From assembly GCF_001310085.1 (NCBI RefSeq), contig NZ_CP012643.1, forward strand, positions 3,207,501-3,271,500: a stretch of DNA of 64,000 nucleotides, read 5' to 3'. The stretch comes from Rufibacter tibetensis. GTDB lineage: Bacteria; Bacteroidota; Bacteroidia; Cytophagales; Hymenobacteraceae. The position numbers were made by a program, and so were the translations under genes. A model generated the notes under the pieces. That model was not told the origin of the DNA, made no database searches, and was given only the letters and a program-made list of their open reading frames with translations. Below, piece after piece: positions 24,560 to 52,297 of the stretch (position 1 is the first letter of the stretch; each line of letters starts with the position of its first letter).

Positions 24560-25330
24560 ATGAAAGTAGTAATTTTAGCAGGAGGCCTTGGGACGCGTTT
24601 ATCTGAAGAAACAAGTTTAAAGCCGAAACCCATGGTTGAAATAGGTGATAAACCTATGTTGTGGCATATCATGAAAATATATTCAAGCTATGGATTTAAT
24701 GACTTTGTCATCTGCTTGGGGTATAAAGGGTATTTGATAAAAGAATATTTTGCCAATTATTACCGCCACTTATCAGACATCACCATTGATCTAAAAGACA
24801 ACTCAGTAGAAGTTCATGATTCACAGGCAGAGCCCTGGAAGATTACACTGGTAGATACAGGAGTGAACTCTATGACTGGTGGCCGAATAAAACGTGTTCA
24901 GAAGTACATAGGCAATGAGCCTTTTCTATTAACCTATGGTGATGGCGTAGGGAATGTAGACATCAAAGCCCTTGTGAAGTATCATCAGCAGCATCGTAAA
25001 CTAGTAACAGTAACCGCAGTACAGCCCTCAGGTCGATTTGGAGCATTAAATCTGGATGCGCAGGAGCAGGTAAACTCTTTCATGGAGAAACCAAAAGGGG
25101 ACGGGGCCTGGATCAATGGAGGTTTCTTTGTCTGTGAACCAGGTGTTTTTGATTACATACCTGGTGACAGCACCATATGGGAAAAAGAGCCCATGGAGAA
25201 TATTGCAGCAGATGACCAAATGGTTGCTTTCAAGCATTCAGGTTTTTGGAAGCCCATGGACACCTTACGTGATAAGATTGAGTTAGAGCAGGAGTGGACG
25301 CTAAATAAAGCTCTCTGGAAAACTTGGTAA
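24560..25330 (+). CDS. rfbF: Glucose-1-phosphate cytidylyltransferase
   Basis: 256 residues. Nucleotidyltransferase opening MKVVILAGGLGTRLSEET and KPKPMVEIGDKPMLWHIMK, with GYKGYLIKEYF and the YGDGVGNVDI metal site. Makes CDP-glucose from CTP and glucose-1-phosphate, the first step of CDP-3,6-dideoxyhexose synthesis. It is 31 bases before rfbG. Confidence 0.95.
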   Translation: MKVVILAGGLGTRLSEETSLKPKPMVEIGDKPMLWHIMKIYSSYGFNDFVICLGYKGYLIKEYFANYYRHLSDITIDLKDNSVEVHDSQAEPWKITLVDTGVNSMTGGRIKRVQKYIGNEPFLLTYGDGVGNVDIKALVKYHQQHRKLVTVTAVQPSGRFGALNLDAQEQVNSFMEKPKGDGAWINGGFFVCEPGVFDYIPGDSTIWEKEPMENIAADDQMVAFKHSGFWKPMDTLRDKIELEQEWTLNKALWKTW

Positions 25331-25361: not shown

Positions 25362-26447
25362 ATGCGTTTAGATCAACTTCAAAACACCTATCAAGGAAAA
25401 AAAGTTTTTTTAACAGGACATACCGGCTTTAAAGGTGCCTGGCTTTTGCAATGGCTCCACATGCTAGGAGCTGAAGTAAAGGGCTACTCTTTAGCTCCGG
25501 AAAACCCTGAAGATTTATATCATCTGATAGAAGGAGATACCCTGTGCCAATCTGTCATTGCAGATTTGCGCCAAAAAGAGTTACTGGAAGAGGCTATCTT
25601 GTCTTTTGAGCCTGATTTTATCTTCCACTTGGCTGCGCAACCACTAGTTAGACTTTCTTATGAAATTCCATCTGAAACCTTCTTTGTAAACGCCATTGGG
25701 ACAGCCTATGTGCTAGATGCACTAAAGAAGTTACAAAAGCCATGTTCTGTTGTTCTTATTACAACTGATAAAGTGTATGAAAACAAGGAATGGGTTTATC
25801 CTTACAGAGAAACAGACCGGTTAGGTGGCTATGACCCTTATAGTGCAAGTAAAGCTTGTGCTGAATTGGTGATCAACTCATATACACAGTCCTTTTTTAA
25901 TCCAGCAGCTTATGAACAGCATCAGAAAGCTATTGCCAGTGCCCGAGCAGGTAACGTGATAGGTGGAGGAGATTGGGCGAAAGACCGTATCATTCCAGAT
26001 ATTGTTAGAGCCTTGCGAAATAGTATTCCCATTTCTGTTCGTAATCCCAATGCTGTACGGCCGTGGCAACATGTGTTAGAGCCTTTGGGAGGATATTTAT
26101 TATTAGGCGCTAAGTTAGCTCAAGATCCTATCTCTTTTGGTGGTGCCTGGAACTTCGGGCCTTATGCAGAAGATAATAAGGTGGTAGAAGAGTTAGTAAA
26201 TACAGCTATTACTATATGGGGTAATGGGAAGTATGAAAAACCAGAACTTGAAAATCAACCGCATGAAGCAGGCTTGTTAAAGCTTGATATTAGTAAGGCA
26301 GTTTCTGAATTAGGATGGAGACCTAAATGGAGTTCTTTTCAAGCAATCAAAGAAACAATATCATGGTATCTAGCTTATGAAAGAAACAGTAAGGAAATAA
26401 AAAACTTTACCATAAACTCGATTAAAGCTTACTCGGAAGATTCATGA
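25362..26447 (+). CDS. rfbG: CDP-glucose 4,6-dehydratase
   Basis: 361 residues, extended SDR. FLTGHTGFKGAWLLQWL is the NAD-binding signature of RfbG; LAAQPLVRLSYEIPSETF, the catalytic YDPYSASKACAELVI (Tyr-x3-Lys) and ARAGNVIGGGDWAKDRIIPD are all diagnostic. Converts CDP-glucose to CDP-4-keto-6-deoxyglucose, the substrate of RfbH. It overlaps the next gene by 4 nt (ATGA), so the order is rfbF, rfbG, then a reductase/epimerase. Confidence 0.96.
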   Translation: MRLDQLQNTYQGKKVFLTGHTGFKGAWLLQWLHMLGAEVKGYSLAPENPEDLYHLIEGDTLCQSVIADLRQKELLEEAILSFEPDFIFHLAAQPLVRLSYEIPSETFFVNAIGTAYVLDALKKLQKPCSVVLITTDKVYENKEWVYPYRETDRLGGYDPYSASKACAELVINSYTQSFFNPAAYEQHQKAIASARAGNVIGGGDWAKDRIIPDIVRALRNSIPISVRNPNAVRPWQHVLEPLGGYLLLGAKLAQDPISFGGAWNFGPYAEDNKVVEELVNTAITIWGNGKYEKPELENQPHEAGLLKLDISKAVSELGWRPKWSSFQAIKETISWYLAYERNSKEIKNFTINSIKAYSEDS

Positions 26448-27340
26448 TAAGAAGTAAGTTATCCATTATTGGGGCAAATTCTTTCCTAGGAAGGAATGTA
26501 ATAGAAGAAGTGAATAATAATGATTGGGAACTTACATTATATGCAAGGGAAAAACCATTATTGCAAAAAGAGTTCGAGTTTATATTATTTGACTACCCGA
26601 ATTATTCTCTCGATATAGATCGATTATTAAGCTCGGATATAATTATATATGCTGCAGGCGCGGGAATACAATCAGGTCTGAAAGAATCAGTTGATTTGGT
26701 CTATCAACTAAATGCATTTATTCCTATATCTCTATTGAATTTGCTTAATGAAAAGAATTATAAGGGTAAAATTATAACATTTGGTTCTTATTTTGAGATA
26801 GGAGAAGTGCCTACTAAGTATGCTTATAATGAAGAAGAACTAGTGTCTATTAATTCTCCTGTTCCAAATCATTATTGTAGTTCAAAGCGCCTATTAACTC
26901 GTTTTGTAATTAGTGGTTTGTTAGATATAAAATATTATCATTTGATACTACCAACAATTTATGGTCCGGGAGAAAATGGTAATAGATTAATTCCCTATGT
27001 TATAAATTGTCTAAAAAACAATAAGAAATTAGTTCTAACAAGTGGGGAACAAGAAAGATCATATTTATATGTAAAGGATCTTGTTTGTCTATTGCTTCAA
27101 TTATGTGAAAGTGAAATGTTAAGCGGAACTTATAATGTATGTTCTAATACGCAAATAAGAATAAAAGATTTAGTTAAGGAGGTAGCAAGGATATATAATG
27201 TTCAGTTAAAGAACATAACATTAGGCACTGTTAGAAATGATATAAAAATGCAGTTTCTGGAGTTAAACTGTTTGAAACTAAGTAATTCAACTTCTTGGTG
27301 CCCGTCTCATACGTTAAAAGATGTAATTCCAAAGTACTAA
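26444..27340 (+). CDS. NAD(P)-dependent CDP-sugar reductase/epimerase, CDP-abequose synthase (RfbJ)-like
   Basis: 298 residues, SDR fold: IIGANSFLGRNVIEEV near the N-terminus, TFGSYFEIGE, the catalytic NHYCSSKRLL (Tyr-x3-Lys), LPTIYGPGENGNRLIPY and a C-terminal DIKMQFLELNC. Translationally coupled to rfbG (ATGA). RfbJ or RfbS reduces CDP-3,6-dideoxy-4-ketohexose to CDP-abequose or CDP-paratose, and the position after rfbFG supports that. Which sugar results cannot be told from sequence alone. Noticeably more AT-rich than rfbG. Confidence 0.75.
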   Translation: MIRSKLSIIGANSFLGRNVIEEVNNNDWELTLYAREKPLLQKEFEFILFDYPNYSLDIDRLLSSDIIIYAAGAGIQSGLKESVDLVYQLNAFIPISLLNLLNEKNYKGKIITFGSYFEIGEVPTKYAYNEEELVSINSPVPNHYCSSKRLLTRFVISGLLDIKYYHLILPTIYGPGENGNRLIPYVINCLKNNKKLVLTSGEQERSYLYVKDLVCLLLQLCESEMLSGTYNVCSNTQIRIKDLVKEVARIYNVQLKNITLGTVRNDIKMQFLELNCLKLSNSTSWCPSHTLKDVIPKY

Positions 27341-43274: not shown

Positions 43275-44633
43275 TTATACTGTGGCGGGTCTTCTGGTGC
43301 CAGGTAAGGATGTTTTGGGCTTTATATTTTGCTTTTTTGTAACAAAGTAATATCTCATGATATATAGGGCCGAAAGGTAGAATGGCATTAAGGGGATTTT
43401 ATATCTTACTAAGGTTCCAAAATTACCGCTGTTAGTGCCTACTGCGAAAGCTAAGACCAAAGAAAATATAAAACTGAAAGTTAGGATTGGAGTAGTAGAA
43501 ATCAACTTAAAGCTTTTGCCAAATCCTGTTTTGTAGAATAGAAAAACAGTTAAATAGATGAAAATCATTGCCTCAACGGCAGAAAGGAGCATGATGGGAT
43601 TTCTTACTTCCCAAAGAAACGGTCGGAACAAAGAAACAACCACAGCTTGTGGGGCAACAGCTAACATACTGCCAATGCTGCCGTCAAAAGTACCAATGTT
43701 ATAGGCAGAGCCCGTGGCCACCATACTACTTGTCAAATATTCACTATTGATTTTTGTTCTTTCCCCAATCTTATCTACATCATATTTATCATCTCCTTCG
43801 GTAAGTTTTGTTGCTCCAAAGTAGGCAAACACTAAGCCTAAACCAATGAATACGGGTTTAAGTAGATTTCTTACCGCTGCATTTTTGATTCTTTTGTTGT
43901 TCTCAGAAAATATCCAGAAAAGGGCCGGTGGTAAGAATGATAATAAAACGTATACCTTCACATTATAGACAAGCCAAGCTGCTAGTAGGGTTATAATTAG
44001 TGATTTGATGAAGCTTTTCTTTTCTATGAAAGCTGCATAGAAGCCATAGAAAAGCCAACCTAGTGCCCCCATGGTAATGGAGTCTTTCATAAAGCCAGAC
44101 CCCCAAAAAAAAACGGAAGGCATAAAGAAGCAAGCTATTGCGAAATGTTTGTGCAGGTGGGGGTAGAGCTTATTGAACGTCAGATACATAGCCCACATGC
44201 CAGTGAAGCTCACCAATGCAAAAAAAATAGCAATAATGGTGTAAGAATTAAAACCTATCACCCCAAATAGAGCTCCTATCTTGACAATGATAAACTCCGT
44301 AGGAGAATGGTACCAATACATAGGAGATGTATATTTAATTGTTGCAGGATTAAATTCTCCATTAGACAAAAAAAGCTGTAGCCCTACTGTGGGATCATCG
44401 TAAAAAGCCTGCGTAACCAGCTTGCTATGAAAATAGTAGTTAAAGGTATCTCCACCGCCATAGTAGAATTGATAGATTAAACCTAAAGCAATTGCACCGC
44501 CCAATTTCAAGGTAAGTGCCGGAATAAAGTATTTTCTTGTGAGCTTGTTTGTAGCCTTAGGCCTAACTTGGTATGCTATCATATAAAACAAGAGCAAGTA
44601 GATAGGAGTGAGCAATAAATCTTTTAATTCCAT
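43275..44633 (-). CDS. Multi-pass membrane protein of unknown function, possible polymerase/GT-C type
   Basis: 452 residues with about ten or eleven membrane segments (LLLTPIYLLLFYMIAYQV to LMPFYLSALYIMRYYF). A long loop YYGGGDTFNYYFHSKLV with Gly-Asp residues and a second loop around 285-340 (GDDKYDVDKIGERTK) could be periplasmic. Bacteroidota have many such proteins in envelope loci; Wzy-like polymerisation is conceivable but unsupported by motif. It is 10 nt from the upstream TPR gene, so one operon. Confidence 0.65.
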   Translation of the reverse strand: MELKDLLLTPIYLLLFYMIAYQVRPKATNKLTRKYFIPALTLKLGGAIALGLIYQFYYGGGDTFNYYFHSKLVTQAFYDDPTVGLQLFLSNGEFNPATIKYTSPMYWYHSPTEFIIVKIGALFGVIGFNSYTIIAIFFALVSFTGMWAMYLTFNKLYPHLHKHFAIACFFMPSVFFWGSGFMKDSITMGALGWLFYGFYAAFIEKKSFIKSLIITLLAAWLVYNVKVYVLLSFLPPALFWIFSENNKRIKNAAVRNLLKPVFIGLGLVFAYFGATKLTEGDDKYDVDKIGERTKINSEYLTSSMVATGSAYNIGTFDGSIGSMLAVAPQAVVVSLFRPFLWEVRNPIMLLSAVEAMIFIYLTVFLFYKTGFGKSFKLISTTPILTFSFIFSLVLAFAVGTNSGNFGTLVRYKIPLMPFYLSALYIMRYYFVTKKQNIKPKTSLPGTRRPATV

Positions 44634-44643
44634 CGTTTCTATC

Positions 44644-45912
44644 TTACTTCACTTTCCTGTTCTTCCTCAAATAAGCTTTCGCCTCTTTCTCTGCATCTGA
44701 CTTTGAATTAGCTAACCGCATGACGGTTTCATAGTACTGCTTTGCTTGGCGCACATTCTTTTCTTTGTCACTCATTCTTGCTAAGTTCACGAAGGAAGAA
44801 ATATAATAACCAGATTCCTGTTCATTAATCTGCTCTGCGAAGGTAATGCATTGCTGATAGTAACTTCTTGCCTTGGCGTAATCCTTGTTTCGGTACTGGT
44901 TGATGTAAGCTAGATAAAAACTGGCATATCGGCCACTGATGGCTTCGTAGCCAAATACCTTCCGGTTAATCTTATCTAGAATCTGAGTGGAGAGCTGCTC
45001 AGCCACAGGAAAATTTCCTTCGGTGAAGGCCATGCGGGCGTAGAAGCGCTGGAAATACGGGTTGTCTGGGTACGTACTGGCTAAGTATTGGGCAAGCGAC
45101 ATGGCTGAAGCGCCATTCTTAGCATCATTGGCGTAAATTTTCATTAACCAGTACTTTGCCTCGGTGCCGGTGTAGAATCCATTGAAAGCAACTTGCTGCA
45201 GCTGTTTTAGTCCTAAGTTCTTGTTCCCTTTGGGAAAGAAGTACAACACGGGGCGAAGCAAGGGATAGTTTTCATGAATCCAGATGGAGTAATAGTTGAA
45301 AAGCGCCTCCCCGAACAGGAACTCATCGCTTAGACCATTAGCTTTTTTGCTTTTCTGCAGGTAATCTAAGGCCCGGTTACTCATAATGGCGGCTTTGCGC
45401 CAATTTTTCCGCTCAGCGTGAAGACGGGCCCCAAACCCATTGGCTGCGGAGAGGAAGAAAGCAGCTTCTAAATTCTTGTTATCCTTGTCATACAGGTTCC
45501 CGGCCAGGGTGATGGTGGTGTCCATGTAAGCCAGGAAGTAATTGTCGTAACGAGTGTCAGTGATGTTAGAGGGCACCATTTTCCACCATTGGCTCAGACC
45601 TATGAGGAAATAGGGCATGGGGTGTTTAGGATACCGGCGACGCAAGGATCTGAACTGCTTTTCAGCGGTCTCAAACTTGAAGTTGTACATGTTGTCTACC
45701 GCCCCCCCCAACTCGTTCATGATGCTTTCATTCAACAGCAGCCACCCTTTTATGTCAAGCGCCTGGGGCAACACGTCAATAGAATCCAGAATGATGATGG
45801 CCTGTAAGGAATCCAGGAGTTTTTGGTCGATCTGTTTGGTAGAATCAGGTACCTGCGCCTGAACCTGCAAAAAGGGAAAGAGGAAAAAAAAGAAGAAAAG
45901 TACCTTTTTCAT
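44644..45912 (-). CDS. Exported TPR-repeat protein
   Basis: 422 residues from ATG 45912 (MKKVLFFFFFLFPFLQVQAQ), which gives a clean signal peptide; the frame is open to 45948 with a less likely extension. Helical repeats fit tetratricopeptide repeats: YPKHPMPYFLIGLSQWWK, YPDNPYFQRFYARMAFTEGN and NVRQAKQYYETVMRLA. Probably periplasmic scaffolding. Upstream member of the minus-strand operon with the membrane protein and the broken acyltransferase. Confidence 0.78.
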   Translation of the reverse strand: MKKVLFFFFFLFPFLQVQAQVPDSTKQIDQKLLDSLQAIIILDSIDVLPQALDIKGWLLLNESIMNELGGAVDNMYNFKFETAEKQFRSLRRRYPKHPMPYFLIGLSQWWKMVPSNITDTRYDNYFLAYMDTTITLAGNLYDKDNKNLEAAFFLSAANGFGARLHAERKNWRKAAIMSNRALDYLQKSKKANGLSDEFLFGEALFNYYSIWIHENYPLLRPVLYFFPKGNKNLGLKQLQQVAFNGFYTGTEAKYWLMKIYANDAKNGASAMSLAQYLASTYPDNPYFQRFYARMAFTEGNFPVAEQLSTQILDKINRKVFGYEAISGRYASFYLAYINQYRNKDYAKARSYYQQCITFAEQINEQESGYYISSFVNLARMSDKEKNVRQAKQYYETVMRLANSKSDAEKEAKAYLRKNRKVK

Positions 45913-46103
45913 TAATTTTCTAAACTGCCAAAATACTCCTATGTGCACAAAGGCCTAAGGCAATGGGGTGTATACTAAAACCGATCCCACAACAAGTGCT
46001 TAACTCAGTAGGTTTCAAGTTCCGTTATAATACTGAGTCTGCTTTTGCCTTGATTTCTCAAAAGTAAGGCCAAAACCCATGTATTCACTACAGAGAAAAC
46101 CAT

Positions 46104-46111
46104 TACTTTTG
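46104..46111 (+). promoter_or_regulatory. -7 promoter element of the M42 peptidase gene
   Basis: TACTTTTG (TAnnTTTG) lies 15 nt before the ATG at 46127, implying a leader of about 10 nt. No clear -33 element. This position rules out the more upstream ATG at 46079. Confidence 0.55.
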
Positions 46112-46126
46112 AAAAAACGCACAACT

Positions 46127-47041
46127 ATGGAATTATTGCGCCAACTCTGCCAGATTCATGCTCCTTCGGGAAATGAAGTACTAATGAAAGAGTTCTTGTT
46201 GAGCTATGTGCAGGAGCATCAAGATACCTGGAAGACAAAACCTCAGATCATTCATGGCGAAGGGTTCCAGGATTGTCTGCTGCTGGTTTTTGGCAAGCCC
46301 CGTACAGTCATTTTTGCCCACATGGATTCTATTGGGTTTATGGTGCGGTATGGCAGGCAACTCATCCGGATTGGTGGTCCTGAGCTCATGACGGGGTATG
46401 AGTTAGTAGGAGAAGACAGCCAGGGGAAGATTTCCTGCACGCTGGTCGTGGACGAAGAAGAAAGGGACTTGCACTACGACTTTGAACGAGAGATAGATCG
46501 TGGCACAGAGTTGGTTTTTAAGCCTGATTTCAGGGAAACAGACGAAACGGTGCAGTGTTGCTACTTGGACAATCGATTGGGCGTCTGGAACGTGCTGCAG
46601 GTGGCCGAGACGTTGGAGGACGGCATCATTGCCTTCGGCTGTTGGGAGGAGACCGGCGGCGGATCTGTGGGTTATCTGGCCAAGTACATGCATGAAACCT
46701 ACGGCGTCACCCAGGCCTTGATCTCAGATATCACCTGGGTCACCGAGGGCGTGCATGCCGGGCAAGGGGTGGTCATTTCTTTGCGTGATTCCCTCATTCC
46801 TCGGAGGAGCTTTGTGCAGAAAATCATCAGGTTGGCGCAGGAGGCCGGCATCCCGCACCAGGTGGAGGTGGAGAGCGCCGGCGGCTCAGACGGGAAGGAA
46901 CTGCATTACGGCAACATCCCCTGGGACTGGTGCTTTGTGGGGGCGCCCGAGGACAATGTACATTCCCCCGAAGAGATCGTGCACAAGAGTGATATTTACG
47001 CCATGGTAGAGTTGTATAACCTCTTGATGGTGGAATTATGA
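46127..47041 (+). CDS. M42 family metallopeptidase (glutamyl aminopeptidase-like)
   Basis: 304 residues from ATG 46127 (MELLRQLCQIHAPSGNE). Two-metal ligands in order: VIFAHMDSIGF, CYLDNRLGVW, FGCWEETGGGSVGY, ALISDITWV and DNVHSPEEIVH. Cytoplasmic aminopeptidases of this family act on N-terminal acidic or other residues. The 5' half is less GC-rich than the 3' half. The last 81 bases recur, diverged, at 49879-49959 just before hppA. The stop abuts the near-perfect inverted repeat at 47041. Confidence 0.9.
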   Translation: MELLRQLCQIHAPSGNEVLMKEFLLSYVQEHQDTWKTKPQIIHGEGFQDCLLLVFGKPRTVIFAHMDSIGFMVRYGRQLIRIGGPELMTGYELVGEDSQGKISCTLVVDEEERDLHYDFEREIDRGTELVFKPDFRETDETVQCCYLDNRLGVWNVLQVAETLEDGIIAFGCWEETGGGSVGYLAKYMHETYGVTQALISDITWVTEGVHAGQGVVISLRDSLIPRRSFVQKIIRLAQEAGIPHQVEVESAGGSDGKELHYGNIPWDWCFVGAPEDNVHSPEEIVHKSDIYAMVELYNLLMVEL

Positions 47042-47112
47042 GTAAACGTTGATGCAACAAAAAAGCCAGGCCTTGAACAAGGCCTGGCTTTTTTGTTGCA
47101 CTAACGTTTACT
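47041..47112. terminator. Near-perfect 72-bp inverted repeat, bidirectional terminator
   Basis: Arms 47041-47075 and 47078-47112 are reverse complements apart from two adjacent mismatches; loop AA. GC core GCCAGGCCTTG flanked by A6/T6 runs. It spans exactly from the last base of the M42 stop to the first base of the rfbH stop. Confidence 0.88.
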
Positions 47113-48383
47113 TAAGAGTTGATATAGTTGCGAATTGTATCAGTGATATAGTCATAGTGCGATTCTTCAATCCCTGGCCAAACACCCAGCCAGAAAGACT
47201 GATTCATGATAATATCAGTATTCTTAAGATCCCCAACTACCCGATGATTAATGTTTGTATAAGCAGGTTGACGGAGTAAATTACCTGCAAATAACAATCT
47301 TGTTCCAATTTTCTGAGCTTCCAAATGTTGTACAAGCATATGTCTGTCATTGGAGTCGCCTTCCCTAAAAGTTAATAAAAACCCGAACCAGGATGGATCA
47401 CTTTTAGGAGTTGGTTCAGGTAAGATAAACAACTCTTCAAATTCTTTCATACGCTCATACAAAGCCGTGTAGTTTTCACGACGCCGCTGTACAAAACGAT
47501 CAACCTTTCTTAGTTGAGACAGGCCAATTGCAGCCTGCATATCGGTTACTTTCAAATTGAAACCAATATGTGAATAAGTGTACTTGTGATCGTAGCCATA
47601 AGGTAGAGTGCCTAGTTGCTGTGAAAAACGACAGCCGCAAGTGTTGTCTTTGCCAGGCTCACAGTAACAATCCCTTCCCCAATCTCTGAAGCTTTCAGCA
47701 ATTTTTGCTAAAATTGGATTGTTAATTAACACTGCACCGCCCTCACCCATGGTAATGTGGTGTGCAGGGTAGAAAGAAAAGGTAGAGATATCACCGAATG
47801 TGCCTGTTTTCTGGCCGTTGTATGTAGCGCCTAGAGAGTCGCAGTCATCTTCCACTACCCACAGGTTGTACTTTTTTGCCACCCTCATTACTTCATCCAA
47901 GTCAAATGGATTTCCTAGAGAGTGTGCGATCATGATGGCTTTTGTTTTAGGAGAAACAGCTGCCTCTATTTGCTCTGCAAGTACATTGTGTGTGGCAATG
48001 TCCACATCAATGAATACGGGAACTGCCCCAAATTGTATGATAGGATTAACAGTGGTTGGGAAACCTGCGGCAACTGTTATTACTTCGTCTCCTGGTTTAA
48101 CAGCTCTTTCTCCTAGTTTAGGTGAAGTTAATGCATAAAACGCTACTAAGTTTGCAGAGGAACCAGAGTTAACCAAAAGTGCTTTGAAGCTGCCAAAGTA
48201 GGCCGCAAACTCAGTTTCAAATTCTCTGGAAAACCGACCAGCTGTTAACCAGCCGTCCGCTACAGCTTCAATGCCTAACAATAAATCATCTTCTTCAATT
48301 ACTTTTCCGGTAACAGGAATATAATCTTGCCCTGCTGTAAAGGATTTAAAGGTTTTGAGCTGTAAGCTTTCTAAATTCTTCAT
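47112..48383 (-). CDS. rfbH: CDP-4-keto-6-deoxyglucose-3-dehydrase (E1)
   Basis: 423 residues of the PLP aminotransferase fold. In place of the PLP lysine it has His ([13 protein letters not shown], His208), the E1 hallmark. The [2Fe-2S] cysteines are present with exact E1 spacing C-x57-C-x1-C-x7-C (Cys181, 239, 241, 249). With the E3 reductase it removes the C3 hydroxyl to give CDP-3,6-dideoxy-4-ketohexose. Its substrate comes from rfbF and rfbG, 22 kb away on the other strand. A reductase gene follows on its 5' side (48547). Confidence 0.96.
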
Positions 48384-48524
48384 TCGTGTAAATTGAGTTT
48401 CCTAAAGTATTTTCATGTTTATTTTTTATGACAAGCCTTATTGTAAAGCAAATTTTTATCACAAAATCAAACTTGAATTGGGATTGTTGGTTTCTGATGC
48501 AGAGTTTGCCTGTTTTGTTTATGC

Positions 48525-48532
48525 CAAAGTTA
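48525..48532 (-). promoter_or_regulatory. Possible -7 element for rfbH
   Basis: TAACTTTG on the minus strand in the gap between the reductase stop and the rfbH ATG (48383). No -33 TTG at 19 bases; leader would be about 135 nt. Confidence 0.35.
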
Positions 48533-48546
48533 CGACTGTAGAGTGA

Positions 48547-49590
48547 TTAGGGAGTAACTTCTATTTTTACATTTTCCGTCAAAGGATAACTGCAACATAA
48601 CAGATATTCATCAAGAGCTAAATCTTCAGGTAGCTTTTCTGGGCCGATTGTTTTTACTTCTCCGCTAACTACTTTTCCCTTACACACAGTGCAATTGCCC
48701 GTTTGACAAGAGTAATTAAGTTCTACAGAAGCATCCAAGCCAGCTTCTAGAATACTTTTTCCTTTTATAACCTCAACTTTTGTAGTTACCTGATTAAGGG
48801 AAATTTCTACATGTTGTGTTTTGATGCCCTCAAAATCTTTTGGATTCTTTACCAGTTCAAAGTCCTCAGAAAAAATTTGCGGGGCTGTTGTTCCTATGTT
48901 TGATAAAGCCTCTTTAACTGATTCTTTAAGTCCTGCCGGGCCGCAAATGTAATGCACTACGCTTTGAATGTGATTTTCATCCTCCATAACTGCCAATACC
49001 TTGCTTGGATTGATGCGACCTTGTATTAAGTAAGGATTGTCATTTTCTGATACCTTCAATTTAGTATGAAAGTGCCAAATTTTTAATTGTTGGGGATAGT
49101 TTTGCTCTAACTCAAGAATCTTATTGTGGAAGATGGCAGACTCATGGCTGCGATTTCCATAAACTAGTGTAAGGCTAAGATGAGGATGGTTCACCAAGAT
49201 ATGCTTGGTTATTGAAAATAAAGGAGTGATACCGCTACCGGCTCCCCATAAATAGATATGTTTTAATTCGGGATACAGCGTTGGTTCAAAAATGAAGTCA
49301 CCCATAGGAGGAAGTACCTCTATGCTGTCCCCAATTTTTACTTCATCAATAATATGGTTGGATACAATTCCTCCTATCACTCTTTTGACTGTTACGTCTA
49401 AGGAGGAGTCTACTCCTGGAGCGGAGGAAAAGGAGTAAGGTCTTATGTAGCGTCTGCCATTAATCCTAAAAATTAAAGTTAAATATTGTCCTGCCTTATA
49501 AGTTACTTTCCTGAGTAAAGGTTGTTTGAAGCAAAGTGTTACAGTGTCTTCCGTTTCTTGCCGAACATCTACAACTTTGAGGGTATACAT
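48547..49590 (-). CDS. E3-type CDP-glucoseen reductase with C-terminal ferredoxin domain
   Basis: 347 residues. FAD site RRYIRPYSFSSAPG, then NAD-binding YLWGAGSGITPLFSITKHI and ICGPAGLKESV, then a C-terminal plant-type [2Fe-2S] domain ELNYSCQTGNCTVCKGK, ending with DEYLLCCSYP. It would pass electrons from NADH through FAD and Fe-S to RfbH. In the known E3 proteins (AscD, RfbI) the ferredoxin domain is N-terminal, while this order is that of PaaE/HmpX-like reductases. The role with RfbH rests on neighbourhood (163-bp gap). Confidence 0.82.
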   Translation of the reverse strand: MYTLKVVDVRQETEDTVTLCFKQPLLRKVTYKAGQYLTLIFRINGRRYIRPYSFSSAPGVDSSLDVTVKRVIGGIVSNHIIDEVKIGDSIEVLPPMGDFIFEPTLYPELKHIYLWGAGSGITPLFSITKHILVNHPHLSLTLVYGNRSHESAIFHNKILELEQNYPQQLKIWHFHTKLKVSENDNPYLIQGRINPSKVLAVMEDENHIQSVVHYICGPAGLKESVKEALSNIGTTAPQIFSEDFELVKNPKDFEGIKTQHVEISLNQVTTKVEVIKGKSILEAGLDASVELNYSCQTGNCTVCKGKVVSGEVKTIGPEKLPEDLALDEYLLCCSYPLTENVKIEVTP

Positions 49591-49878
49591 ATTTATGAAA
49601 ATGCTGAGATCATCATTTATGTAAGTATAAAGTTTTAAGCTTACATAAATATTACTTATTTGATTTGCAGTCCGTGAATGCTTGCTTTTTTAACTATTCA
49701 GGTTTGAATCAGGGGCAAAAGTAAGGAATTGTCAGTTAGTATTACATGGCAAATAAAACCATTTTCAAATAGTAGAGTGGGCTATGACATTAAAAATGTA
49801 ATATGTAGGACATTATAGAGTAGTGTAATGCTGCTTATTAAACTAATGACAAAATAGACACAGGTTTACTATTGCTTC

Positions 49879-49959
49879 CATTCCCCCGACGAGATCGTGC
49901 ACAAGAGTGACATTTACGCCATGGTGGAGCTGTATAACATTCTGATGCAGAAACTGTAA
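49879..49959 (+). pseudogene. Remnant of an M42 peptidase gene 3' end
   Basis: Encodes HSPDEIVHKSDIYAMVELYN followed by ILMQKL and a stop, which matches the last 26 residues of the intact gene at 46127-47041 (SPEEIVHKSDIYAMVELYN and LLMVEL). DNA is clearly similar over 46961-47041, with synonymous and a few coding differences. Similarity begins abruptly at CATTCCCCCGA; upstream bases are unrelated. There is no start and no active-site residue beyond the final His. Confidence 0.85.
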
Positions 49960-49982
49960 AATAAGCAGCATAGAGTATACCG

Positions 49983-49990
49983 TATATTTG
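49983..49990 (+). promoter_or_regulatory. -7 promoter element of hppA
   Basis: TATATTTG matches TAnnTTTG; predicted start near 49996, leader of about 75 nt before the ATG at 50069. No -33 TTG at the usual spacing. Confidence 0.5.
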
Positions 49991-50068
49991 TTTTTTAGGG
50001 GAGAAAGCTTAGCTTGCAGAGAGCTTCTAAGCCGAAAATCCAAACCTAACCAAACAAAGCCTTACTTT

Positions 50069-52297
50069 ATGCAGACAATTCTCTACGCTATTCCCGCCCT
50101 CGGGCTGGTTGCCTTGTTGTACACTGCCATTAAATCGGCGTGGGTTACGAAGCAGGACGCCGGTGACGAAAAGATGAGCACCATTGCCCGCTACATTGCC
50201 GAAGGGGCAATGGCTTTCCTGAAGGCCGAGTACAAGGTGCTCACCTACTTCGCGATCATCGCCTCGATTTTCCTTTTCTACCTGGGCTACGTAGGCGAGA
50301 ACTCGTCTCCCATAATCGTATTAGCATTTTTAATTGGGGCTATTTTCTCGGCCCTGGCAGGTTTCATAGGCATGCGGATCGCCACCAAAGCCAACGTGCG
50401 CACCGCGCAAGCCGCTAAAACCAGTTTGTCAAAAGCGCTGGACGTATCCTTTTCCGGCGGTGCCGTGATGGGCATGGGCGTAGCCGGTTTAGCGGTGCTA
50501 GGCTTAGGTTCACTTTTTATCGCGTTCTACTACTGGTTTGTACAACGTACGGGCGCCTCTGCGAGCAGTGAAGAAATGGAAGTGGCGCTGGAAGTATTAA
50601 CCGGCTTCTCTCTAGGGGCTGAAAGCATTGCTTTATTTGCCCGAGTAGGCGGAGGCATTTACACCAAGGCGGCCGACGTAGGAGCAGATTTAGTAGGAAA
50701 AGTAGAAGCCGGTATTCCGGAAGATGACCCTAGAAACCCTGCCACCATTGCTGATAATGTGGGAGACAACGTAGGTGACGTGGCCGGTATGGGCGCTGAC
50801 TTATTCGGCTCTTACGTAGCCACCATTCTGGCCACTATGGTGCTGGGCCGAGAAATCACCGTCACCGACAACTTCGGCGGCTTGTCGCCTATCATCCTCC
50901 CCATGCTCATTGCGGGTTTGGGAATTATCTTCTCTATGATCGGGACCTTGTTTGTGCGCGTGAAGGAAGGTGGAAGCGTGCAGGCCGCGTTGAACATGGG
51001 CAACTGGTCTTCCGTGGCGCTTACAGCCATTGCTTCTTATTTCATCATTGACTGGCTTATGCCCGAGACTTTAAGCTTACGGGGGTATGAGTTCACGTCT
51101 ATGGGTATCTTTTGGGCCGTGATTATAGGCTTGGTAGTAGGAACCCTCATCTCCATCATCACCGAGTACTATACCGCCATGGGCAAAAAGCCTGTGAATT
51201 CTATTGTACAGCAATCTTCCACCGGAGCCGCAACCAACATTATTGCGGGTTTAAGCGTGGGCATGATGAGCACGGCCATGCCGATCATCGTGCTAGCTGC
51301 CGGTATCGTGTTCTCCTACGCAGTAGCGGGTTTGTACGGAGTAGCCATTGCCGCCGCCGGAATGATGGCCACCACTGCTATGCAGTTAGCCATTGACGCT
51401 TTCGGACCCATTGCCGACAATGCCGGAGGTATTGCTGAGATGAGCGAATTACCCAAAGAGGTTCGGGAGCGCACCGATATTCTGGATGCTGTAGGAAACA
51501 CCACCGCCGCTACTGGAAAGGGTTTTGCCATCGCTTCGGCGGCGTTAACTTCACTGGCGTTGTTTGCGGCCTTTGTGGGAATCTCCGGCATCAGCACCAT
51601 TGACTTGTACAAAGCACCTGTTTTAGCAGGTTTGTTTATAGGAGGCATGATCCCGTTCGTGTTCTCCGCACTAGCCATCAGTGCCGTGGGAAGAGCCGCC
51701 ATGGCCATGGTGCAGGAGGTACGGCGCCAGTTTCGTGAGATACCAGGCATCATGGAGGGCACGGGCAAACCTGAGTATGATAAGTGCGTGGCCATTTCTA
51801 CCAAAGCCGCCATCCGGGAGATGATGTTGCCGGGCGCTATTGCTTTGATTGTGCCTATCATCATCGGGTTTGGCTTGCGGGGTGTGTTTGAAGAAGTGTC
51901 CAGTGCTGAGATTTTGGGTGGCGTTCTAGCAGGGGTAACAGTGGCAGGTGTTTTGATGGCGATTTTTCAATCCAATGCTGGAGGCGCCTGGGACAACGCA
52001 AAGAAGTCCTTCGAAAAAGGAGTGATGATCAACGGGGTCATGGAATACAAAGGCTCAGATCCACACAAAGCCTCGGTGACGGGTGATACGGTAGGGGATC
52101 CGTTCAAAGATACTTCCGGGCCGTCTATGAACATCCTCATCAAGCTGATGTCTATTGTGTCATTGGTGATTGCTCCCCATATCGCGGTACGCGAAACCAC
52201 GCCTGATGCCCCTGAGAACCGACTTGACGTAGAAACCACTACCTTGAAAACTGACAAAGCAGGGCCAGATACCACGGTATCTTACCTGAAGAAATAA
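50069..52297 (+). CDS. hppA: Membrane-bound pyrophosphatase, K+-dependent Na+/H+ pump
   Basis: 742 residues from ATG 50069 ([18 protein letters not shown]); the frame extends to 49988, but the extension overlaps the promoter. About 16 helices. Substrate site [20 protein letters not shown]; the pump signature [12 protein letters not shown]. In [10 protein letters not shown] the residue after NTT is Ala, the K+-dependent type (Lys in K+-independent pumps). Hydrolyses PPi to move Na+ or H+ across the membrane; which ion is not decided from sequence. A hairpin terminator follows. Confidence 0.95.

Follow-up and report, generated by a model that had tools for sequence, protein, structure and literature searches.

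In Rufibacter tibetensis (Hymenobacteraceae), a gene for an M42-family peptidase and hppA, the gene of a membrane pyrophosphatase, enclose a short block of two genes on the opposite strand, rfbH and an iron-sulfur flavin reductase, next to a surface-polysaccharide locus. The block was studied in a stretch of 64,000 nucleotides (nt) of contig NZ_CP012643.1, called the window here, and its features are collected in Table 1. The 3' end of the M42 gene occurs twice in the window, once in the working gene (copy 1) and once, diverged, shortly before hppA (copy 2, the remnant). From this repeat, a sequence-only reading of the window had proposed that the M42 gene once abutted hppA and that DNA carrying rfbH and the reductase entered between them. 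It was right on the observation and, as judged by the genome comparisons below, appears essentially right on the history.

Table 1 Features of the M42-hppA interval and functional partners in the main sugar locus (window coordinates)
Feature	Position	Strand	Remarks
M42-family peptidase gene	46079..47041	+	Conserved flank of the surface-polysaccharide locus; Pfam PF05343 above cut-off
Copy 1, M42 3' end	46961..47041	+	Putatively imported tail, …LLMVEL*
Near-perfect palindrome, 72 bp	47041..47112	.	Between the M42 and rfbH stop codons
rfbH (ddhC/E1-like dehydrase, CDP-3,6-dideoxyhexose synthesis)	47112..48383	-	NCBIfam NF011936; foreign to the family
Iron-sulfur flavin reductase (FAD-NAD-Fer2)	48547..49590	-	PF00970, PF00175, PF00111
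Spacer, reductase start to right junction	49591..49878	.	Without M42 match
Copy 2, remnant of the native M42 3' end (26 codons and stop)	49879..49959	+	Right boundary of the insert
Native M42-hppA spacer	49960..50068	+	First 70 nt match congener spacers
hppA, membrane pyrophosphatase	50069..52297	+	Right conserved flank; NF001955 above cut-off; start taken as ATG 50069 (49988 in the mechanical ORF list)
12-bp perfect inverted repeat around the remnant	left arm 49828..49839, right arm 49960-49971	.	
rfbF, glucose-1-phosphate cytidylyltransferase	24560..25330	+	Main locus; TIGR02623 above cut-off; functional partner
rfbG, CDP-glucose 4,6-dehydratase	25362..26447	+	Main locus; TIGR02622 above cut-off
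NAD-dependent epimerase/reductase	26444..27340	+	Main locus; PF01370; role suggested by position

The repeat itself is well defined. A repeat search returned 46961-47029 and 49879-49947 as a direct repeat of 69 nt with 90% identity (62/69 positions), and over the full 81 nt of the two tails 68 positions agree and 13 differ. The local DNA alignment of the copies scores 103, with a maximum of 30 among 200 shuffles, and holds an identical block of 20 nt. As had been described, 49879-49959 re-encodes the last 26 codons and the stop of the M42 gene in diverged form. The remnant reads HSPDEIVHKSDIYAMVELYNILMQKL* in an open frame without frameshift or internal stop, and the largest divergence between the copies falls in the last four codons (GTGGAATTATGA in the gene, CAGAAACTGTAA in the remnant). 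A DNA search of the whole genome with the M42 tail (46900-47045, E 0.001) matched these two places only and found no M42 sequence upstream of 49879. The duplicate starts mid-gene and does lack an upstream part, also as claimed.

Both flanking genes are conserved. M42 is matched in all 16 genus genomes and in 202 of 204 family genomes, and hppA in all 16 genus genomes. In 14 of the 15 congeners, M42 lies directly before hppA at a distance of 112-336 nt between match coordinates, which bears out the proposed ancestral order; measured in the same way, the remnant lies 115 nt from hppA. The fifteenth congener, G013, has a gap of 1,284 nt. M42 proteins of the congeners end in LM(Q/H/K)(K/R)L, that of the remnant in LMQKL and that of the working gene in LMVEL. 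Across the 70 nt that follow the remnant, 14 of the 15 congener spacers share 49-64 of 66-70 aligned positions, in every case more than the best of 50 shuffles, and G013, with its own insert at the site, does not stand out in this comparison. Behind the working gene, at most 33 of 50 positions in the following 70 nt align to congener spacers (no shuffles were made on that side). At the 13 sites where the copies differ, the base of copy 1 is found in none of the 15 congeners at six sites and that of copy 2 in none at one site, while at seven sites the base of copy 2 is shared by 11-15 of the 15. Over the 81 nt, six congeners agree with copy 2 at more positions (69-72) than copy 1 does (68), and copy 1 has at most 66 agreements with any congener.

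Because it carries the genus C-terminus and is followed by 70 nt matching the M42-hppA spacers of the congeners, the remnant beside hppA is taken as the native M42 end and behaves as the species' own allele. The tail of the working gene (…MVEL) would then be the newcomer. Of the substitutions that this gene shares with no congener, nine fall in its last 123 nt and ten in the preceding 780 nt (p 0.0003; the first 60 nt were left out), and the same test on 15 control genomes reaches p 0.05 in none of them (lowest 0.054). The comparison of the two 3' ends that the sequence-only reading had suggested thus gives a genus-type end with a native spacer for copy 2 and an odd end for copy 1. Of the two routes it had offered, entry at or near the 3' end of the gene or arrival with a second M42 allele, the latter fits better. 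By the similarities of the copies alone, which do not distinguish the two, copy 1 may stem from a fairly close donor or be of local origin.

Within the genus, the cargo is restricted to this genome. Only one of the 16 genus genomes has an RfbH-grade match, the others reaching at most 38% identity, and rfbG at E 1e-60 is likewise found in one of 16. This agrees with the earlier claim that the DNA with rfbH and the reductase entered at this site. Across the family, rfbH at E 1e-100 occurs in 18 of 204 genomes, and the 17 others show 69-77% identity. RfbH relatives were also sought in contigs of named genomes, and the best 80 of at least 581 were examined as loci; the closest RfbH among these is that of Pedobacter westerhofensis (87%). 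In the RfbH tree, whose bootstrap is not fully settled, the window falls in a set of 41 rows, mostly Sphingobacteriaceae and Flavobacteriaceae, with support 99/99, and all five Hymenobacter rows stand in another clade. These placements put the ancestry of RfbH outside the family. The rfbG of the window is 77% identical to two Hymenobacter loci, 66-73% to the other three and at most 71% to other genera, which points, less firmly than in the case of RfbH, to an ancestry within the family. The five Hymenobacter loci hold rfbF, rfbG and rfbH, with an epimerase match in three and no reductase within the stretch examined. As an ancestry marker, rfbF was rejected because its identity to Pedobacter puniceum (78%) is level with that to Hymenobacter (up to 77%).

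The cargo may complete a pathway. The cytidylyltransferase, the 4,6-dehydratase and the 3-dehydrase of the CDP-3,6-dideoxyhexose pathway are all present in the window (TIGR02623, TIGR02622 and NF011936, each above its cut-off), RfbH scoring 696 bits with NF011936 against a cut-off of 423. The main locus contains rfbF, rfbG and the epimerase without rfbH, which sits 20 kb away, and the cargo genes would supply the dehydrase and electron-donor steps that the main locus lacks. The reductase is presumed to be the electron donor to RfbH (E3 role); its best NCBIfam model is PaaE, at 201.7 bits under the cut-off of 420.8. The epimerase is a possible last step, of the abequose/paratose synthase type. 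The predicted product of this split pathway, whose genes differ in ancestry, is a 3,6-dideoxy sugar. In 40 of the 80 rfbH loci, a relative of the reductase lies directly before rfbF, followed by rfbG and, further on, rfbH; in none of the 80 does it adjoin rfbH. Because rfbF and rfbG stand between the reductase and rfbH in all 40 loci with a reductase, the block of the window looks like a trimmed version of such loci. As for the reductase itself, its ferredoxin domain is C-terminal, whereas classic DdhD/AscD enzymes carry theirs at the N-terminus, and it possibly represents another architecture for the E3 role.

The interval between M42 and hppA was then compared across the family, using the 126 of 204 genomes in which both genes were among the matches listed (hppA of G011 was taken from the genus search). 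The two genes share contig and strand in 125 of these genomes and are on different contigs in one. The gap is below 400 nt in 87 of the 125, 400-800 nt in 14 and at least 800 nt in 24, the last ranging from 0.8 to 8.3 kb. Cargo was examined in 22 of the 24 large-gap genomes, including G013 and the window, and the counts that follow are gene contents, not independent events. Sugar or acyl-transfer genes with family support were found in 13 of the 22, the window among them. Directly after the M42 stop, G013 carries a NeuD-type sugar acetyltransferase gene (L018:2516-3148, above cut-off), which is a different cargo at the same site. The gap of G070 contains a glycosyltransferase, an epimerase and a DegT aminotransferase gene, those of G143, G046 and G033 an epimerase and/or a glycosyltransferase gene, and that of G092 an MBOAT acyltransferase gene, and six large gaps hold an Acyl_transf_3 gene. 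The remaining ones include one transposase, one PDDEXK_3 protein and four gaps without an open reading frame (ORF) over 96 amino acids. Some of these contents are likely to have been inherited together. The M42-hppA gap is a recurrent slot across the family. Three of the 22 gaps, those of G185, G157 and G186 (L232, L233, L234), hold related proteins of 307-312 amino acids; their only similarity is to FUT8 (fucosyltransferase), below threshold, and they are possibly an unlabelled glycosyltransferase family.

Further stranded M42 tails were found in two of these gaps. A profile built from the genomes' own M42 tails was run over all 125 gaps, and a DNA version of the scan covered the 122 gaps of at least 100 nt, three shorter ones being left out. 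The top profile scores are 80.1 for the window, 28.9 for G033 and 25.8 for G027, at 109, 77 and 126 nt from hppA, respectively. The fourth score is 19.2 and the best reverse-strand control 18.2; weak remnant-like peptides at 19.2 or lower were not counted, being near this control. In the DNA scan, the window scores 103, G033 45 and G027 39, followed by 25, with a best reverse-strand control of 29 over the 122 gaps. The tail in G027 (21/22 nt) stands 126 nt before hppA. Its last 23 nt equal the native M42 end of the relative G042 and differ at two sites from G027's own M42, and the flank behind it matches G042 and G081 (scores 173 and 160), compared with a best of 25 behind G027's own M42. By these matches, G027 repeats the pattern of the window, a native tail stranded before hppA. 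In G033, the tail is decayed, with an internal stop, and 46 of 60 aligned columns agree. Relatives with both the same remnant and rfb genes at the site were not seen: among the 125 genomes, only G027 and G033 also have detectable remnants, and their cargo is different.

Taken together, the rfbH-reductase insert was probably added to the slot between the conserved M42 and hppA genes by recombination, likely with an anchor in M42 and an illegitimate right junction. The incoming DNA would have consisted of an M42 3' end, a hairpin terminator, rfbH and the reductase. On the left, it would have recombined within the M42 3' end or close beside it, leaving the gene whole but with a new tail; at this putative join, the reading frame of M42 runs unbroken into the divergent tail. 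On the right, the join would have been illegitimate and have fallen inside the old M42 gene, 26 codons before its stop, where the sequence before 49879 shows no homology to M42. The native tail would have been left stranded before hppA and the upstream region of hppA untouched. The two joins would account for the layout as one event.

Polysaccharide loci exchange cassettes by recombination in conserved flanking genes, and the sequence-only reading had likened the block to such swaps. Recombination at a flank gene is still the likely mechanism, and a variable sugar locus does lie beside the conserved M42 and hppA genes. The part that does not stand is the exchange of a whole cassette: the added genes lie beyond the flank, in an annex slot, two genes and M42 away from the main locus. 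The main sugar locus is on the opposite side of M42, with two genes (43275-45948) in between. In eight congeners and three Hymenobacter genomes, the 20 kb left of M42 contain variable glycosyltransferase genes, a variable membrane gene and the TPR gene, the latter with 78-95% identity in the eight congeners. Homologues of ugd, uxs or asnB (82-94%) lie near the left end of this 20-kb stretch in six of the eight. A whole-cassette swap across M42 was rejected on this layout, with the main locus left of M42 and the conserved TPR gene and the variable membrane gene between them. The membrane gene (43275-44633) shows 34-71% identity in the eight congeners and has no Pfam or NCBIfam match.

Several results weigh against a recombinational addition. 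No donor with the order M42, hairpin, rfbH and reductase was found in the 80 rfbH loci or the 204 family genomes; none of the 80 loci has an M42 or hppA match at E 1e-10, and when the M42 tail with the hairpin was searched in the 204 family genomes, only the window spans the hairpin among the matches listed. Without its last 12 nt, the tail excess in M42 weakens to five private substitutions in 111 nt against ten in 780 (p 0.03), and the scan of private changes along the gene shows no sharp breakpoint. A mosaic breakpoint was also not found in the M42 gene of G027 when compared with G081, G042 and G032. There is no remnant in 122 of the 125 genomes; the three with remnants are among the 24 gaps of at least 800 nt, and most insertions must therefore have left no such scar or lost it. 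In addition, the two copies have in common a YN that is YK in each of the 15 congeners, and in the first 69 nt they match one another at 62 positions, slightly more than either does with any congener (maximum 59 for copy 1 and 60 for copy 2).

The shared YN change and the closeness over 69 nt would also result from a local tandem duplication of the M42 tail in this lineage, followed by a separate insertion of rfbH and the reductase between the copies. Such a history needs two events at one site, and across all 81 nt six congeners are closer to copy 2 than its supposed twin is. It is disfavoured because the genus bases survive in the useless copy and the divergence falls on the working gene, the reverse of decay, and we regard it as quite improbable. 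Site-specific integration is another candidate. Elements that integrate in the 3' ends of tRNA and other genes carry replacement 3' ends, and a mobile element with the M42 3' end as its attachment site, whose recombinase was later lost, would give the same layout of restored gene end, cargo and native gene end. The 20-nt block identical in both copies and the recurrence of the remnant in G027 and G033 are in keeping with this. Yet no recombinase was found among the block ORFs of at least 80 amino acids with family matches, which are rfbH and the reductase (an antisense ORF inside rfbH was left unscanned), and no remnant was detected in the 19 remaining large-gap genomes among the 22 whose cargo was examined. 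The remnants are also unequal in length (81, about 60 and 22 nt), although two may be decayed. Since no recombinase was found and the remnants differ in length, an integrase-based element is considered unlikely. An assembly artefact is scarcely credible, as the genome is assembled in three contigs and rated 100% complete, 13 of the 81 sites distinguish the copies, and G027 has the same layout independently.

A recombinational addition would place the window beside known systems. Homology-facilitated illegitimate recombination, with one homologous end, one illegitimate end and a gain of non-homologous genes, has been described in three naturally competent species and in E. coli conjugation (PMC3240628). 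The window shares the illegitimate end and the gain of genes and would share the homologous end; its case is read from genome scars, the donor not being found. In Vibrio cholerae, a study on the type VI secretion system describes new effector modules that are anchored in conserved upstream sequence and displace old ones, so that old immunity genes or gene ends are shifted downstream; its authors suggest a process akin to homology-facilitated illegitimate recombination (PMC5361080). The window differs in that sugar genes make up the cargo, a peptidase gene would act as the anchor, and what was left stranded is the end of that anchor gene itself. The likeness to rfbF-rfbG-rfbH (ddhABC) operons is that all three genes pass curated cut-offs; the pathway of the window differs in being split over 20 kb and two strands and in having an RfbH of other ancestry. 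No literature was found on Hymenobacter rfbH or on recombination of polysaccharide biosynthesis in Hymenobacteraceae, and, judged by the titles of the papers listed, the literature on dideoxyhexoses and on flanks and serotype switching holds nothing on such insertions.

The base-level scars of the window would represent the editing of a surface-sugar locus through the gain of individual pathway genes at a place apart from its main cluster. The tail of a flank gene stranded at a second flank is a searchable signature and permits counting such events in the family. Given that the slot recurs and that two more remnants exist, this is more than a single accident and appears to be a further example of a process already known in kind. 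More tentatively, and at somewhat less than even confidence, the M42-hppA interval might be a standing, family-wide acquisition slot for surface-sugar genes in which each cargo brings an M42 3' end as homology anchor and thereby repairs the flank gene. If so, the locus would gain single modifying genes without a whole swap, and stranded M42 tails would record, and could date, successive acquisitions.

Two smaller structures lie near the ends of the block. The palindrome has 35-nt arms that are 94% complementary and fills exactly the gap between the convergent M42 and rfbH stops. The predicted fold of 47039-47114 has -54 kcal/mol (z -12.5), and the 30-nt core occurs once in the genome; the structure is probably a bidirectional terminator. 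At the other end, the 12-bp inverted repeat encloses the remnant, its right arm belonging to the native spacer. Perfect inverted repeats of at least 12 bp arise in 5 of 300 shuffles, and the repeat may be the trace of a template switch at the right junction or a matter of chance.

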